From: Coriobacteriia bacterium
Lineage (GTDB): Bacteria > Actinomycetota > Coriobacteriia > Coriobacteriales > Eggerthellaceae
Reading direction: 5' to 3'
Length of the DNA stretch: 64,000 bases
Assembly: GCA_030530215.1 (NCBI GenBank)
Contig: JAUMVJ010000004.1
Location: 1 to 64,000 of the forward strand
Below the pieces are notes generated by a model. It was not told the DNA's origin and searched no databases. It worked only from the letters and a program-made list of their open reading frames with translations. Positions 5,912-31,533 of this stretch are shown piece after piece. The translations under genes were made by a program, and so were the position numbers. Positions within the stretch are counted from its first letter, which is position 1, and every line of letters begins with the position of its first letter.

Positions 5912-5986
5912 TGGTGGCCGATACAAGATTCGAACTTGTGACCTTGTGCTTGTAAGGCACCTGCGCTCCCGCTGCGCCAATCGGCC
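5912..5986 (-). tRNA. tRNA-Val(UAC)
   Basis: The reverse strand folds as a 72-nt cloverleaf plus encoded CCA. The acceptor is GGCCGAT with ATCGGCC, the D arm GCGC/GCGC, the anticodon loop CTTACAA (anticodon UAC) and the T loop TTCGAAT. One mismatch (G27-A43) lies at the top of the anticodon stem. The gene has its own terminator and a plausible promoter. Confidence 0.96.
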
Positions 5987-6189: not shown

Positions 6190-6264
6190 GGGCGCTTAGC
6201 TCAGCGGGAGAGCATCACCTTCACACGGTGGGGGTCGCAGGTTCGAACCCTGTAGCGCCCACCA
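6190..6264 (+). tRNA. tRNA-Val(CAC)
   Basis: A 72-nt cloverleaf plus CCA: acceptor GGGCGCT/AGCGCCC, D stem GCTC/GAGC, anticodon stem TCACC/GGTGG with loop TTCACAC (anticodon CAC), and T loop TTCGAAC. It is divergent from the UAC valine tRNA, about 200 bases apart. Confidence 0.97.
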
Positions 6265-22679: not shown

Positions 22680-23753
22680 ATGAGTGGCGAGTTCAAGATA
22701 GAGAGCGTGTTGTTCGATTCAGGTGAGGCGAGCCCCAGTGCCTGTGATCGGGCTGGTCGTACCACGTCAACTGAGCTGGTTGAGGAAGACCTTGCCCTTG
22801 ATCGCAGCCTGCGCCCCAAATATTTAGGCGATTACCTGGGTCAAACCAAGGTGAAAGAAAGCCTTTCGATCGTAATCGAGGCTGCCAAGCGCCGCGGTGA
22901 GGCAGCGGATCATATTCTATTCAGCGGCCCGCCGGGTCTTGGCAAAACCACGCTTGCAAGCGTGGTTGCAAACGAGATGGGTGCACACATTAAAACAACC
23001 AGTGGTCCGGCTATAGAACGCACGGGAGATTTGGCGGCCATTCTTACCAATCTCGAGGAAGGCGATGTTCTTTTCATCGATGAGATTCATCGTATGAATC
23101 GCATGGTTGAGGAAGTCCTCTATCCTGCTTTGGAGGATTTCGTTCTCGACATTGTTGTAGGGAAGGGCCCTGCTGCGCGGTCGATTCGTTTGGACTTACC
23201 ACGGTTCACTCTTATTGGTGCAACCACGAGGACCGGTCTTTTAACGGGGCCTTTGAGAGACAGGTTCGGTATCGCATTTCGTCTTGATTACTACAGTCCC
23301 GAAGAGCTTTCTCAAATTGTGGTTCGTTCTGCTTCGATTTTGGGCGTCGACATCATGGAAGAAGGTGCTCTGGAAATCGCTCGCAGGAGTCGCGGTACGC
23401 CTCGATTGGCCAATAGGCTGCTTAAGCGCGTAAGGGATTGGGCTCAGGTAAAGGGTGATTCCGTGATAGACGAGGATTGCGCAGCTCAAGCCTTAAGTTT
23501 CTTTGAAGTTGATTCCTTGGGATTGGACCCTATGGACAATCGCATCCTTGGCTTACTCTGCGAGCAGTTTGCCGGACGTCCCGTTGGCTTGTCGACCCTA
23601 GCCTCGGCTCTGTCTGAGCAACCTGACACGATCGAGGATGTGTACGAGCCTTATCTGCTGCAGCAGGGATTGCTTATGCGCACCCCGAAAGGTAGGCAAG
23701 CTACGGCCCGCGCTTTCAACCATTTGGGTATTATTGCCCCCGAGGGTATTTGA
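22680..23753 (+). CDS. ruvB: RuvB branch-migration helicase
   Basis: An AAA+ motor of 357 residues. Walker A is [13 protein letters not shown], Walker B is FIDEIHRMN, sensor 1 is IGATTRTG, the Arg finger is in LRDRFG and the C-terminal winged helix follows ([16 protein letters not shown]). About 35 residues precede the conserved start of the family ([12 protein letters not shown]), a modest N-terminal extension of unclear use. Order ruvC-ruvA-ruvB is conserved and all share one transcript. Confidence 0.97.
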
Positions 23754-23767
23754 CGAAGGAGCGCTTG

Positions 23768-24175
23768 ATGTTCACCCAGGATTACCTGATGCGCATGATT
23801 TTGGAATTGGCCGGAGCCATACGCAAAAGTTTTCTTACTGCCAAGGAAGACAACGACCCGGAGGGCGCAGCGCAGCTCTTGGAGGCCACCCTCGACGGTG
23901 CCACCGAAATGGACTCCAGCCTGCTTTTAAGTTTGGAGCCTGATTCCATGGCTGCCATGCTGCAGATTTCAGGTTCCGATCCTCAGCTCATGACCTATGT
24001 TTCGCGCATCCTTTTGCTTGAGTCCCACTATCTTAAAATGGCTCAACGTCATTCCGAAGCGGAGCTTAGGCACGGTCAGGCCTTCGCCGTCGCCAAAGCC
24101 TTCGGTATCCCTTTGTCCGAAGGCGACGTCGAGGAGCCTAAGATGAATTGCTTCCTCGATTCGCAGATAAACTAG
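23768..24175 (+). CDS. Small helical protein, DUF6483-like
   Basis: A 135-residue, probably all-helical cytoplasmic protein beginning MFTQDYLMRMILELAGAIRK. The start resembles proteins annotated DUF6483 in Firmicutes and Coriobacteria, but I recall the family only loosely. ATG 23768 has GAAGGAG upstream; an in-frame TTG at 23750 overlaps the end of ruvB. It is the last gene before a strong terminator and is probably co-transcribed with ruvCAB. Confidence 0.6.
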   Translation: MFTQDYLMRMILELAGAIRKSFLTAKEDNDPEGAAQLLEATLDGATEMDSSLLLSLEPDSMAAMLQISGSDPQLMTYVSRILLLESHYLKMAQRHSEAELRHGQAFAVAKAFGIPLSEGDVEEPKMNCFLDSQIN

Positions 24176-24372: not shown

Positions 24373-26070
24373 CTAGAGCCTTATGAACATCGCATCGCCG
24401 AACGAGAGCATGCGATAGCGTCGTTTGATGGCATGGCGGTAGGCGCGCATCACGTTGTCTCGGGTGCTGAATGCGCTCACAAGCATCATTAGCGTGGAAC
24501 GGGGCACGTGGAAATTAGTGATCAGCTGATCAACCACGTGGAATTCGTATCCTGGCAGGATGAAAAGATTCGTTGATTCGCGATCACGTGCGCGTAGCTC
24601 GTCGTTCTCTTTGTCCCAAGCCGATTCGAGCGACCTAACGCTGGTGGTTCCTACCGCGATCACGCGTCCGCCACGTTCTTTGCATGCTTTGATAGCGTCG
24701 ACGGTACGTTGAGGCACGGTGTAGAACTCCGTGTGCATTGCGTGATCGCGCGGGTTTTCTTCGTCGACGATGCGGAAGGTGTCAAGGCCAACCTCCAGAT
24801 GGACCGTTTCCCATTCAATGCCTTTTGCCTTAAGTCGCTCGATAAGCTCGGGCGTGAAATGCAATCCCGCCGTCGGAGCCGCTGCCGATTTCTCCTCGCG
24901 GCTGTATACCGTCTGGTACATCTCCTCGTTGCCTGCATAGCCCTTGATGTAAGGAGGCAGGGGAGTGTGGCCAACGGCATGAAGTGCTTCGTCAAGCGAT
25001 GCGCGTGTTGTGCTCAAGCGTGCAAGGCGCTCGCCCTTCTGCCCGCCCTCGACCCAGTCGATGATCTCGGCGCTTAAGGCAATCTCTCCGTTTTCATCGG
25101 TGAAATCAACCAAAGCCCCAGTTCCGGGCTTGAGTCTTTTGCCGGGACGCACAAGGACCTCCCATATCGCGGAAGCATCTTTCTTTGGCTCTACGTCGAA
25201 GCGCTCACGCAAAAGGAAAACCTCGGCCGAGCCGCCCGTACCTCGTTTTTGTCCAAGCAGTCGTGCCGGCATAACGCGCGTCTCGTTTGCTACGAGCAGG
25301 TCGCCCGGTTGCAAATATTCTTCGATGTCCTTAAAAATGCGGTCTTCTATCGCACCGGTGTCTCTTTTCGTGACAAGCATCCTGCATTCGTCGCGGATGG
25401 GGGCAGGTTCCTGGGCGATGAGTTCCTCGGGAAGGTCGTAGTCGAAATCGTCGGTTTTCATATTGAGCAGTTTCTCTTTTCGTTTGAGCTCTTTTGCTTT
25501 CTTGCGTTCGAGTTTGCGTCGTTCTCGGTCGGCTTTGGCCTCTTCGATGGACCAGCGGCATCCGCAATAATTCTGTCGGTACATCCCGAGCTCGCGGCTG
25601 CGCGTCGTAGCTGCAGGGTAGTAGGGGCGGTAATCGTTGTGGATGGGGGTAAGGCCTGAATAGGCGCCGCAGGCTTCTTTTAGCTCTTCGCCGCAAACCT
25701 CGAAGAGCTGATAGGGGCTTACGGCCAAGGTGGTACCGAGCGCATCGAAGCCGTGCTTGTGAGCATATGCCGCAGCGCGCTCGAGTCTGAAACGGTAGCA
25801 GGCTCGACATCTGCGCGCGCGGGGGTCGTTGGGGCTCCAGGCTTCCTTTATGAGCGTTTCCCATTCGTCGTTGTCCCAGCTGTCGCTTACGACGGGGATT
25901 TCGTTAGTGTGCGCCCATGCGAGCAGCGTGTCCAAGCGCTGTTGATATTCTTCGGCGGGCTCGATATTGGCGTTGCTGAAGAAGATCGTGATGTCGTGGC
26001 CTTCTTCAGCGAGCAGGCGATAGGGCTCTAGGGAGCAGGGACCGCAGCAGGCATGCAGCAAAAGCTTCAT
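24373..26070 (-). CDS. QueH-QueA fusion (epoxyqueuosine reductase / tRNA ribosyltransferase-isomerase)
   Basis: One 565-residue frame. Residues 1-175 are QueH (DUF208): LLLHACCGPCSLEP with Cys8, Cys9 and Cys12, then RRCRACYRFRL (Cys88 and Cys91), and YCGCRWS (Cys169 and Cys171). A Lys/Arg/Glu-rich linker spans about 176-203. Residues 204-565 are QueA: FDYDLPEELIAQEPAPIRD, then NETRVMPARL, and AGLHFTPELIE. QueA makes epoxyqueuosine from preQ1-tRNA and QueH reduces it to queuosine, so the fusion joins consecutive steps. Met204 (25459-25461) could be an internal start, but no strong ribosome site is seen. No stop lies between the parts. tgt, the preceding step, lies 1.1 kb away on the other strand. 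Confidence 0.92.
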   Translation of the reverse strand: MKLLLHACCGPCSLEPYRLLAEEGHDITIFFSNANIEPAEEYQQRLDTLLAWAHTNEIPVVSDSWDNDEWETLIKEAWSPNDPRARRCRACYRFRLERAAAYAHKHGFDALGTTLAVSPYQLFEVCGEELKEACGAYSGLTPIHNDYRPYYPAATTRSRELGMYRQNYCGCRWSIEEAKADRERRKLERKKAKELKRKEKLLNMKTDDFDYDLPEELIAQEPAPIRDECRMLVTKRDTGAIEDRIFKDIEEYLQPGDLLVANETRVMPARLLGQKRGTGGSAEVFLLRERFDVEPKKDASAIWEVLVRPGKRLKPGTGALVDFTDENGEIALSAEIIDWVEGGQKGERLARLSTTRASLDEALHAVGHTPLPPYIKGYAGNEEMYQTVYSREEKSAAAPTAGLHFTPELIERLKAKGIEWETVHLEVGLDTFRIVDEENPRDHAMHTEFYTVPQRTVDAIKACKERGGRVIAVGTTSVRSLESAWDKENDELRARDRESTNLFILPGYEFHVVDQLITNFHVPRSTLMMLVSAFSTRDNVMRAYRHAIKRRYRMLSFGDAMFIRL

Positions 26071-26106
26071 GGTTCGGTTAATGCTCCTTTCGATTTGACC
26101 TTAATT

Positions 26107-26141: not shown

Positions 26142-26340
26142 ACACACTATGGAAGGAGTCTAGCTTAGGCTCATTCCCCACGCCGGGCTTATGCGAGCCC
26201 AGGCGGCGGACAAGCCGCAGGTCATATGCGTTTTCCGTTTGGATGTGCGCTAGGGCCGCCGAAAGCCAGTCCATGGTTCTCAAAATGAGCTTCGGCTCAA
26301 ATGGCTTGCCCGGTTTTATTAGCCTCGTGAAAGGTGATTG
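26142..26340 (+). ncRNA. Structured leader, candidate riboswitch or ncRNA
   Basis: The region between the promoter and the HAD gene is dense in pairings. A long-range stem CCGGGC/GCCCGG (26183-26188 with 26308-26313) encloses GGCGGC/GCCGCC (26202-26207 with 26255-26260) and AAGCCA/TGGCTT (26263-26268 with 26302-26307). The last contains the hairpin TGAGC-TTCG-GCTCA (26286-26299). The 5' strand of the closing stem can alternatively form GGGCT/AGCCC (26185-26189 with 26196-26200), so two exclusive folds exist. I do not recognise a known riboswitch consensus. An independent small RNA is also possible. Confidence 0.4.
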
Positions 26341-27135
26341 ATGGAAGACCGATCGTACCAGGCCATATTTTTCGATCTTGACGGAACTCTACTTCCCATG
26401 GATATCGATAATTTCCTTAAGAAATATGGCGTTCAGCTGGGTAAATTCTTTGCCGATGAGGGCTTCGACGACCCTCAGGGTTTGGTGAAGAAGGTGTTTA
26501 CCTCAACGGCTGTCATGTGCGACGAGCACGAGGGTCTTACCAATAAGGAGGCTTTTTGGGAAGCCTTCGAAAAGGACACCGGTTTGAGCCAAGAGCTCAT
26601 GGAGCCCAAGATGTACGAGTTCTACCGCGGTCCATACAACGACATCGCTGCCGACTTGGCTCCTTTCCCGCAGGCTGCTTACGTTGTTAAGCTTCTTCGC
26701 AAGAAAGGCTACCCCCTCTACCTCACAACCATGCCCATTTTCCCCACCACCGCTGTCCGTGAGCGCATCGGGTGGGTTGGGCTCAACGAAGGCGATTTCG
26801 AGCGCATGACTACCTACAGCAATTCGTCTCACGTCAAGCCGAGTCTCGATTACTACCAAGAGAACCTTTCCTACGCCGGACTTAAGGGCGAGGACGTTTT
26901 GATGGTGGGCAATAACACTTCCGAGGATCTGGCGGCCATGGAGCTTGGTTGCGATGCCTTCTTGGTTACGGACATGTTGATCGACCCCATCGATTACGAT
27001 CTGTCGCAGGTTCGTCACGGTTCCTTCGATGATTTTGTTAGGTTTGCTGAATCCCTGCCCGACTGTGAGCCTCATGAGCTTGATTTTATGAGCTTGCTCG
27101 AAATGGGTACCGAATTCCAGGATGATGAGGAATAG
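26341..27135 (+). CDS. HAD-family hydrolase
   Basis: A 264-residue haloacid-dehalogenase-type phosphatase. Motif I is FFDLDGTLL (nucleophile Asp and acid Asp), motif II is LYLTTM, motif III is Lys in HVKPS, and motif IV is VGNNTSEDLAAM. A helical cap lies at about residues 20-90. The substrate is a small phosphorylated compound that cannot be named. Start ATG 26341 with GAAAGG upstream; TTG 26338 is possible. It is followed three bases later by tgt, so the two are one operon. Confidence 0.88.
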   Translation: MEDRSYQAIFFDLDGTLLPMDIDNFLKKYGVQLGKFFADEGFDDPQGLVKKVFTSTAVMCDEHEGLTNKEAFWEAFEKDTGLSQELMEPKMYEFYRGPYNDIAADLAPFPQAAYVVKLLRKKGYPLYLTTMPIFPTTAVRERIGWVGLNEGDFERMTTYSNSSHVKPSLDYYQENLSYAGLKGEDVLMVGNNTSEDLAAMELGCDAFLVTDMLIDPIDYDLSQVRHGSFDDFVRFAESLPDCEPHELDFMSLLEMGTEFQDDEE

Positions 27136-28284
<1,149 letters not shown>

Positions 28285-28416
28285 TAGAAACAGCCCTTTT
28301 TCGCGGTATTATGAACAATTGCATATTCGCGTAGTGCGTCCTTTTGCCTTTACTGGTGGGCAAAGCGCGCTGTTTTGTTTATTTAGGTAATGAAAGCGAT
28401 TCCAATAGGGGAGCGT

Positions 28417-31400
28417 ATGTCTGAAGAAAATAACGAGCAAACATCGGGAGAGGACGAGGCTCTGAAGCTAGAGCCCGAAGCCGTCGCAGACGAACCAGAG
28501 GACGCTTCGTCTGAGCCCGAAGCTGGCAATGCCCAGGTTGAAGCCGTCAAGGGCCAGGCCGAAGGCGACGAGGCAGACTCCGAGGCCGAAGACGCCAAGA
28601 AAGCCGATTCGCCTTCTGAGGATGCTTCGAGCAAGAAGGGTTCCGAATCCGATAGCGAAGACGAGGGTGCAGCTGGCAAAGCCGAGGAAGCCCCCGCTCC
28701 CAAGTTCAAAGCACGTGGTAAGGTCGACAAGAAAGCAAAGGGTCCCAAGCCCACGCGCGAGGAGAAAGCTGCCGCTAAGGTTTTGAAGGGCCAGCGCAAA
28801 GAGCGCGCGAAGGCTCAGAAAAAGGCCGACAAGCACGAGCGTTCCGTCAGCATTGCCAAGGAAAACGCCCGCCGCGCTGCCAAAAAGAAGAGTAAAGTCA
28901 AAAACCCGAATCGTCGCAACGTGTGGCTGATCATTCTCACCACCTTGCTCGTTATCGGCGCATGCTTCGCCTTCATTCCTCCTCAAGAGAAGATCAACCA
29001 GGGCTTGGACGTTCAGGGCGGCTTGTCGGTTGTCCTTTCGGCAAACACCACCGACGGCTCCGATATCTCCTCTGAAGACCTTGAGAAGTCTCGCTCGGTC
29101 ATCGAGAGCCGCGTTAATGCGCTCGGCGCCTCCGAGGCGGTTGTCCAGGTTCAGGGCAACAATCAGATTCTGGTTCAGATCCCTGGCATGACTGATGCGG
29201 AAACCGCACTGAACACCATCGGCAAGACGGGTGTTCTTGAGTTCGCTCGCGCCGACTCGTTCACCAACGATGAGGACAAGAGCGCGATTTCCAGTGGCTC
29301 TTATGCAAGCCAGCAGACCTTTACTGATGATTTCGGTAATTCTTTCCAGGGGTCTCAGACCACGTATGCCGACGTTAAGGGCAGCTACACCCCGCTGATT
29401 ACCGGCGAGAACATCACGAGCGTCAGCGTTGATCGCGCTTCCGAGACCGGCACCGATTACGCCGTTAATATCAAGCTCGACTCCGAGGGTACCAAGGCTT
29501 TCGCGGAGGCCACCAAGGAGCTTGCATCCGATAAGGGCCAGATCGTCATCATCCTCGACGGCCAGATTCAAAGCGCGCCCGCCGTTCAGTCCGAGATTAC
29601 CGGCGGCGAGGTCTCCATCACCGGCAACTACACCCTGAAAGAAGCTCAGGCTCTGCAGACCGTCCTCGAGTCCGGTTCGCTGCCTGTGAGCTTTAAGTAC
29701 GAGCAAAGTCAGGTTGTTGGTCCTACCCTCGGTCAGGACGCACTTGCGACCGGCGTGCTTGTCGCACTCATCGGTCTGATCCTGGTTATTCTCTATCTTT
29801 TGTTCTTCTACCATGGCCTGGGCTTGCTGACGGCTGCCGCGATGGCTGTGTTTGCGATCCTCTACATGGGCTTGCTTGGCTTGCTATCGTCGCTGGGCCT
29901 GTTCAGTTTGTCCCTTGCAGGTTTGGCCGGCGTCGTTTTGACGATCGGCATGGCTGCCGACTCCTCGATCCTGGTCTTGGAGCGCTTCCGTGAGGAAATT
30001 CGCATGGGTCGCAGCGTTCGCGCCGCATCCGTCACCGGCGTTCGCCACGGCATCCTGACATCCATCGACGCCGACTTGGTCACGCTCGTATCTGCGCTTA
30101 CCTTGTTCTTCCTGGCAAGTGCTTCGGTTAAGGGCTTCGGCATGACCCTTGCCTTGGGCATCATCTGCGACATCGTCATGATGCTTATCCTCAAGGCGCC
30201 TTTGGTTCGCCTGCTTGCTCCTATCTCCATCGCTAAGCATCCTGGCTTCTGGGGAGTTAAGGACTGCGAGAAGGCGGCCCCCGTTTACGCTGAGCTCACC
30301 GAACTGCAGAACACCCCCAACCCCGAGCCCTCCATGGTTTCCGAGGTGGCGGACCACTTCAAGGCGGTAAAGGGTCGCTTCATCAAGAAGGACATCAACT
30401 TCATGGGTGCACGTAAGTATCTGCTTACCTTCTCTGCATGTTTGATTGTTCTTTCCTTCCTCGTGGTAGGCGTGAAGGGCGTCGACTTCGGCATCGAGTT
30501 CGTTGGCGGCACTTCTATCACCTTTAGCGATACCGGCGACGTTACTGCCGATCAGATGCGCTCTGCCTTCGAGAAGGTTGGCGAGACCGACGCCGTTATC
30601 CAGACCACGGAATCCAATGGTGCGAACGGCTTCCTGATCCGCACCACCACCACTTCTGCCGAGGATGCTGCTTCGCACGCTCAGTCCGTTGCCAGCTCGC
30701 TTGGCCTGTCCACGAATTCCTATCAGGTAAGCACCATCGGTCCCGACTGGGGCGCGAGCGTCATCAATTCGTCTTTGATCGCCTTTATCGTTTCGCTGTT
30801 CCTGATCATCTGCTACATCGCGGTTAGGTTCGAGTACAAGATGGGCGTCATGGCCGTCATCGCTTTGCTGCACGACCTTATCATCGTGGTGGGCATTTAT
30901 GCGCTGGTCGGGCGCGAAATCACGCCTAACACCGTTGCGGCTCTTCTTACCATTTTGGGTTACTCGCTCTACGACACCGTCGTCGTTTTCCACCGCATCA
31001 ACGAGAACATGAAGGAATCCAAGGTCAAGGCAACCTTCCTTTCTATGGCCAACCATTCCATCAACCAGGTCTTCATCCGTACGATCAACACCACAACAAC
31101 CTCTCTTGTTCCGGTTATCGCAATGTGCCTGTTCGGCGGAGAGACCCTGCAGGACTTCGCGTTCGCAATGGTCATCGGCTTGGTCTCCGGCTCTTACTCT
31201 TCCATTTGCGTCGCAACGCCTTTGTTCTGCATCTGGAAATCTCGCGAGGAAGTTTTTGCCAAACTTCGCCGCAAGCTGGGCGATGCGGTTGAAATCTTCA
31301 CCTTTGCAAGCACGCCCGTCCTGGCCCTGAGCGCACCTGGTACTTCTGGTGCAGCTGGCGTTTCCGCCCAGGCTGCAACTTCGGCTGCCGCTGGCGATGA

Positions 31401-31533
31401 GGCCGGCAAGGGCGAGTCAAAGGCAACAAGCGCCGAATCGTCCGACGCTTCTGCCGAGACAGAGAAGAAGTTCAAGCCCAAGCAGAAGGCCTCCGATACC
31501 GGCCGTCCGCGTTATCGTCGTAAGAAGAAGTAG
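28417..31533 (+). CDS. secDF: Fused SecD-SecF protein-export subunits with charged N-terminal extension
   Basis: A 1038-residue protein-translocation motor component. The SecD half starts with a membrane helix (about 169-186) and the motif QGLDVQGG, and ends in five more helices. The SecF half begins INFMGARKYLL and VDFGIEFVGGTSITF. Together this gives the expected twelve membrane segments. The N-terminal extension is unusual: residues 1-93 are very acidic and 94-167 very basic, and all are cytoplasmic by topology. The C-terminus is a basic low-complexity tail. ATG 28417 follows AGGGGAG; an in-frame ATG at 28390 would add nine residues. A DUF1292 gene starts eight bases after the stop. Confidence 0.93.
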   Translation: MSEENNEQTSGEDEALKLEPEAVADEPEDASSEPEAGNAQVEAVKGQAEGDEADSEAEDAKKADSPSEDASSKKGSESDSEDEGAAGKAEEAPAPKFKARGKVDKKAKGPKPTREEKAAAKVLKGQRKERAKAQKKADKHERSVSIAKENARRAAKKKSKVKNPNRRNVWLIILTTLLVIGACFAFIPPQEKINQGLDVQGGLSVVLSANTTDGSDISSEDLEKSRSVIESRVNALGASEAVVQVQGNNQILVQIPGMTDAETALNTIGKTGVLEFARADSFTNDEDKSAISSGSYASQQTFTDDFGNSFQGSQTTYADVKGSYTPLITGENITSVSVDRASETGTDYAVNIKLDSEGTKAFAEATKELASDKGQIVIILDGQIQSAPAVQSEITGGEVSITGNYTLKEAQALQTVLESGSLPVSFKYEQSQVVGPTLGQDALATGVLVALIGLILVILYLLFFYHGLGLLTAAAMAVFAILYMGLLGLLSSLGLFSLSLAGLAGVVLTIGMAADSSILVLERFREEIRMGRSVRAASVTGVRHGILTSIDADLVTLVSALTLFFLASASVKGFGMTLALGIICDIVMMLILKAPLVRLLAPISIAKHPGFWGVKDCEKAAPVYAELTELQNTPNPEPSMVSEVADHFKAVKGRFIKKDINFMGARKYLLTFSACLIVLSFLVVGVKGVDFGIEFVGGTSITFSDTGDVTADQMRSAFEKVGETDAVIQTTESNGANGFLIRTTTTSAEDAASHAQSVASSLGLSTNSYQVSTIGPDWGASVINSSLIAFIVSLFLIICYIAVRFEYKMGVMAVIALLHDLIIVVGIYALVGREITPNTVAALLTILGYSLYDTVVVFHRINENMKESKVKATFLSMANHSINQVFIRTINTTTTSLVPVIAMCLFGGETLQDFAFAMVIGLVSGSYSSICVATPLFCIWKSREEVFAKLRRKLGDAVEIFTFASTPVLALSAPGTSGAAGVSAQAATSAAAGDEAGKGESKATSAESSDASAETEKKFKPKQKASDTGRPRYRRKKK

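Follow-up and report, generated by a model that had tools for sequence, protein, structure and literature searches.

The window (the whole 64,000-nucleotide stretch of DNA analysed, from an actinobacterium of the Eggerthellaceae) carries queH and queA as one open reading frame, and its product is, with high probability, a bifunctional QueA/QueH enzyme for two consecutive steps of tRNA modification. The C-terminal QueA domain would turn preQ1-tRNA and SAM into epoxyqueuosine-tRNA, and the N-terminal QueH domain would then reduce epoxyqueuosine-tRNA to queuosine-tRNA, the two domains being tethered by what is probably a basic helical tail already present in coriobacterial QueH. An earlier note on this DNA had placed the QueH cysteine motifs and a full QueA in a single frame, which is borne out by the reading frame and its Pfam and NCBIfam matches; its reading that consecutive enzymes are joined here is likewise supported.

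The fused gene, its domains and its surroundings

The locus contains the following features:
24373..26070, minus strand: queH-queA fused open reading frame of 565 amino acids, with an ATG start at 26070 and a TAG stop at 24373-24375
26084..26090, minus strand: Shine-Dalgarno sequence AAAGGAG 5' of the queH start (−7.8 kcal/mol)
25543..26064, minus strand: QueH domain, residues 3-176 (Pfam PF02677, E 2.7e-49)
25462..25542, minus strand: basic linker formed by residues 177-203 (net charge +7), corresponding to the tail at the C-terminus of unfused QueH
25459..25461, minus strand: codon of Met204, at the start-codon position of unfused queA, with a weak upstream Shine-Dalgarno sequence (−2.9 kcal/mol)
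24379..25461, minus strand: QueA domain, residues 204-564 (NCBIfam PRK00147, 427.7 bits; TIGR00113, 371.2 bits)
26338-27135, plus strand: HAD-family hydrolase gene between tgt and the fused gene
27139..28284, plus strand: tgt, for the preceding pathway step, a divergent neighbour (Pfam TGT, E 4.5e-152)

The computed molecular mass of the QueH-QueA product is 64.7 kDa. The PF02677 match scored 168.1 bits (curated cut-off 23.5) and spans profile positions 1-174 of 175. The cysteines of the QueH domain are found at positions 8, 9, 12, 88, 91, 169 and 171, in agreement with the earlier note, and all seven are invariant in an alignment of seven fused proteins. The scores of the QueA domain exceed the cut-offs of both NCBIfam profiles (267.45 bits for TIGR00113, an equivalog profile matched over its full length), and the Pfam Queuosine_synth match covers residues 207-563 (E 3e-127). 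Both domains are present in a predicted structure modelled from 42 sequences (mean pLDDT 87.9, pTM 0.72), whose PDB matches are QueA 1yy3 and QueH 7lc5; the model carries no inter-domain confidence. The closest named relatives belong to the Eggerthellaceae and other Coriobacteriia. No second copy of either domain was found in the genome of the window (G000; 1.47 Mb, 63.6% complete). Because this genome is so incomplete, claims of absence lean mainly on G003, a member of the same genus that is 99% complete.

The stand-alone QueH of T. maritima (DUF208, PF02677; 7lc5) is matched by the QueH domain with an E value of 1.1e-19 (phmmer). Its C9 and C10, the CxxC pair and the CGC motif are aligned with those of the fused protein, and the predicted fold of the QueH domain is similar (TMt 0.85). 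The two differ in that T. maritima QueH has Asp13 where the fused protein has Cys12, and in that the latter is additionally joined to QueA; according to the titles of PDB records, mutant structures of the T. maritima protein at Asp13 and Cys9 have been solved. Stand-alone QueA (TIGR00113; 1yy3, and 1vky from T. maritima) is matched over its full length, beginning at the usual start methionine and ending at the C-terminus, and the fused protein adds the 203 residues of QueH domain and tail in front of it.

A single helix, with the linker included, is predicted at residues 172-202. The tail that follows the CGC motif in 117 distinct unfused QueH proteins has a median length of 41 residues (range 6-182) and a median composition of 26% Lys/Arg, 17% Asp/Glu and 29% Ala. 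As judged from sequence, the linker is this usual Lys/Arg/Ala/Glu-rich coriobacterial QueH tail, shortened and continuing into QueA. The charged linker to which the earlier note had drawn attention is thus real but not specific to the fusion, the tails of unfused QueH being alike. Unfused QueH tails of the Eggerthellaceae type were mostly 60-110 residues long among those displayed, compared with 33-34 residues for the linker in this genus, so that part of the tail appears to have been deleted together with the stop codon and the spacer. The 78-residue linker of another fused locus, L067, looks like the result of simple stop loss.

The start of tgt lies 1,068 bases past the 5' end of the fused frame on the opposite strand, in agreement with the 1.1 kb given previously. 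In G014, a gene that looks similar to the HAD-hydrolase gene (L113:3159-4103) is likewise in divergent orientation to the fused gene. SecD and SecF form one open reading frame of 1,047 amino acids (28390-31533, plus strand) with a charged N-terminal extension of ∼170 residues, and no yajC was found in the short gap after tgt. The 141-residue open reading frame after ruvB (23750-24175, plus strand) has no Pfam match. Two tRNA-Val genes stand back to back at 5912-5986 (minus strand) and 6190-6264 (plus strand), with anticodons tac and cac. No preQ1 riboswitch was detected at gathering scores in the window, for which Rfam gives three tRNAs only; scans of the window for promoter-like and terminator-like patterns were uninformative.

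Distribution and origin of the fusion

The fused frame is uninterrupted in all four genomes of the genus (G000-G003). The other three are 71-81% identical, and the distance from the YCGC motif to DFDY is exactly 36 codons in each. Fusion was found in 8 of the 138 genomes of the family: besides the four of this genus, three of six in g52 (one of them, L181, readable only to the contig edge) and one of three in g12. For the order the count is at least 10 among 395 genomes, including G599 (one of 16 in g317; a stop-free full-length match) and G041 (fused up to the contig end); it is a lower bound because it is based on the matches listed, and many of these genomes were scored by reported stops and frames rather than by reading the DNA. 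Eleven genomes of the family that had a long open frame but no reported stop were inspected directly; the genes are separate in all eleven, as they are in G004. In a phylum sample of 396 genomes, a stop-free match across both domains was seen in G000 and G003 only; in 17 genomes outside the order the match to both domains is interrupted only by 1-3 stop codons, the genes being in-frame tandems. Among 80 named loci, seven are fused.

Elsewhere in the order queH and queA are mostly separate genes, often in tandem, and such tandem pairs, the putative precursors, are common among relatives. The pairs of other Coriobacteriia (Slackia, Collinsella) share gene order, orientation and the tail with the fused gene and are presumed to be ancestral; their two genes are kept apart by a stop codon and, in most cases, by a spacer or a short overlap. 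The fusion would have arisen in the ancestor of the genus when a tandem queH-queA pair lost its spacer, the queH stop codon and the last part of the QueH tail. At four loci of relatives (L154, L177, L182 and L183) queA begins a few bases before queH ends, which suggests translational coupling without fusion. Searches for a phage, plasmid or viral origin gave no candidate source: none of 50,697 phage records covers ≥80% of the query, the one plasmid record of 251 matching ones that does is a replicon of Collinsella on which the two genes are separate, and none of the 24 pattern matches in viral contigs encodes a relative.

In the QueA tree (127 rows, 10 of them fused, including the long, partial row of L114) six changes of fusion state are needed, every one forced by well-supported branches, which indicates that the fusion recurs. 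The tree does not distinguish gain from loss; repeated gain is the simpler reading, fused rows being the minority. The four members of the genus form one clade in the QueA tree (support 99). In the QueH tree G000 and G002 stand apart from G001 and G003 (two changes), and the stem of the G000/G002 branch is 0.48. Constraining these QueH domains to a single genus clade carries a cost of 19.8 log units (p-AU 0.056, with 38 rows hand-chosen post hoc). Either QueH evolved fast in G000 and G002, or the QueH domain was replaced in one branch, or there were two fusions; a single fusion is favoured because the junction length is identical throughout the genus.

Because queH and queA are tandem neighbours, in many cases with only a few bases between them, a stop loss or small deletion would join them with little consequence. 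The fusion may accordingly be a near-neutral by-product of gene order, with domains that work independently, to which we give about an even chance; this is compatible with a bifunctional protein and competes with a selected coupling of the two steps. The common tandems, with in-frame pairs split only by stops in the 17 genomes outside the order, speak for it, as do the at least six state changes, the mixed state of close relatives in g52, g12 and g317, and a linker that is a pre-existing QueH tail, while the conservation of the fusion and of its junction length in all four genus members, together with apparently decayed internal initiation (see below), counts against it. Such genus-wide retention is nevertheless compatible with neutrality and shows only that there was no return to two genes.

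Function and possible coupling of the two steps

QueA acts on preQ1 at tRNA position 34, to which it transfers ribose from SAM with isomerisation; the product is epoxyqueuosine-tRNA, and QueH reduces epoxyqueuosine (oQ) to queuosine in tRNA. The intermediate between the two enzymes is a modified tRNA, so that any channelling would be the hand-off of a macromolecule. Both activities and a single protein product are inferred. QueG was not found above the cut-off in any of the 11 genomes searched, G003 included, and the fused protein is therefore predicted to be the sole epoxyqueuosine reductase; tgt was found in all 11. Full-length QueC is encoded in G000 (C9:2377-3024) and G002 (about 200 bits), whereas in G003 QueC matches are weak only (30 bits at best), and de novo synthesis of preQ0 may thus vary within the genus.

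In principle, the fusion could have been selected for a hand-off of the tRNA from QueA to QueH in which epoxyqueuosine-tRNA is not released. The steps are consecutive, fusion has been repeated in one and the same orientation and the linker is basic and predicted to be helical, but most relatives are unfused and the basic tail is equally present in unfused QueH; we consider this explanation rather unlikely. Gain or loss of the fusion among close relatives does not suggest a strong requirement for the channelling or fixed stoichiometry that the earlier note had inferred. A more specific version is doubtful indeed: the tRNA would pass from QueA to QueH along the basic helix, with oQ-tRNA never accumulating, and the tail of unfused QueH would dock tRNA or QueA and so favour repeated fusion. 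Overall, coupling of QueA and QueH is possible, and tandem gene order alone could be sufficient to account for the fusion.

The bifunctional MnmC of E. coli similarly combines two enzymes for consecutive steps of wobble-base modification in one polypeptide; the base, the chemistry and the protein families are different from those of QueH-QueA. Fusions were reportedly among the evidence that first linked DUF208/QueH to queuosine in the paper naming QueH (Zallot et al. 2017). The QueH-QueA type of fusion may already be on record. No description of it was found in passages of PMC8204110, PMC5372724, PMC5615194, PMC1282579 and PMC11130926, subscription journals being mostly outside reach, and a term search of PMC4921024 returned no queuosine term.

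Translation of the junction and the internal start

Purifying selection acts on both domains, with pN/pS values of 0.13-0.22 for QueA and 0.22-0.43 for QueH. For the junction (YCGC to DFDY) the coding frame of the two sister pairs has pN/pS values of 0.37 and 0.27, compared with values in the same pairs of 1.26 and 1.55 for frame +1 and of 0.81 and 0.91 for frame +2; counts over 27 codons gave 0.29-0.44 for six pairs. The pooled Fisher p for selection on the junction was 1.9e-7 (rounded counts, two sister pairs). Since pN/pS is low in the coding frame and not in the other two, the junction is concluded to be translated as protein.

An internal start at Met204 would give two products, the full-length protein and free QueA. 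The ATG is kept at this position, that of the unfused queA start, in three of the four genus members, and other fused lineages (L047 and L113) have an internal ATG with a strong Shine-Dalgarno sequence (−8.6 and −6.5 kcal/mol). The pairing energy at Met204, however, is close to the median of −2.7 kcal/mol for 266 internal ATGs in 42 genes of the window, 47% of which equal or beat it, and that of unfused queA was −5.8 to −9.8 kcal/mol in six of the seven relatives examined and −3.4 kcal/mol in the seventh; all these energies were predicted from sequence, using a generic anti-Shine-Dalgarno tail. In G003 the start codon is missing entirely, with no ATG, GTG or TTG in the stretch that begins 40 codons ahead of DFDY and ends 22 codons beyond it. 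Among other fused loci, L035 and L036 have no start codon within 29 codons before DFDY, and L114 none within 15 codons. The weak Shine-Dalgarno sequence of Met204 and the missing start codon of G003 indicate that free QueA has probably been lost in this genus, and the production of two proteins, which the earlier note had named as the alternative, is quite improbable here; in some other fusions free QueA may persist. The further alternative of an assembly or sequencing error that masks a stop codon between the domains, for which the draft state of the genome would speak, is practically out of the question, since the same fused frame, with identical junction length, is found in the three other members of the genus.

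The fusion is thus genuine, though only a minor departure from an established pathway. In this genus a separate QueA is probably no longer produced, and the queuosine pathway itself is unchanged by the fusion. Within one order, unfused, newly fused and long-fused QueH and QueA form a natural series for tracing how the internal start was lost, and the single-chain enzyme allows one to ask whether the last two steps of queuosine synthesis are coupled on the tRNA.
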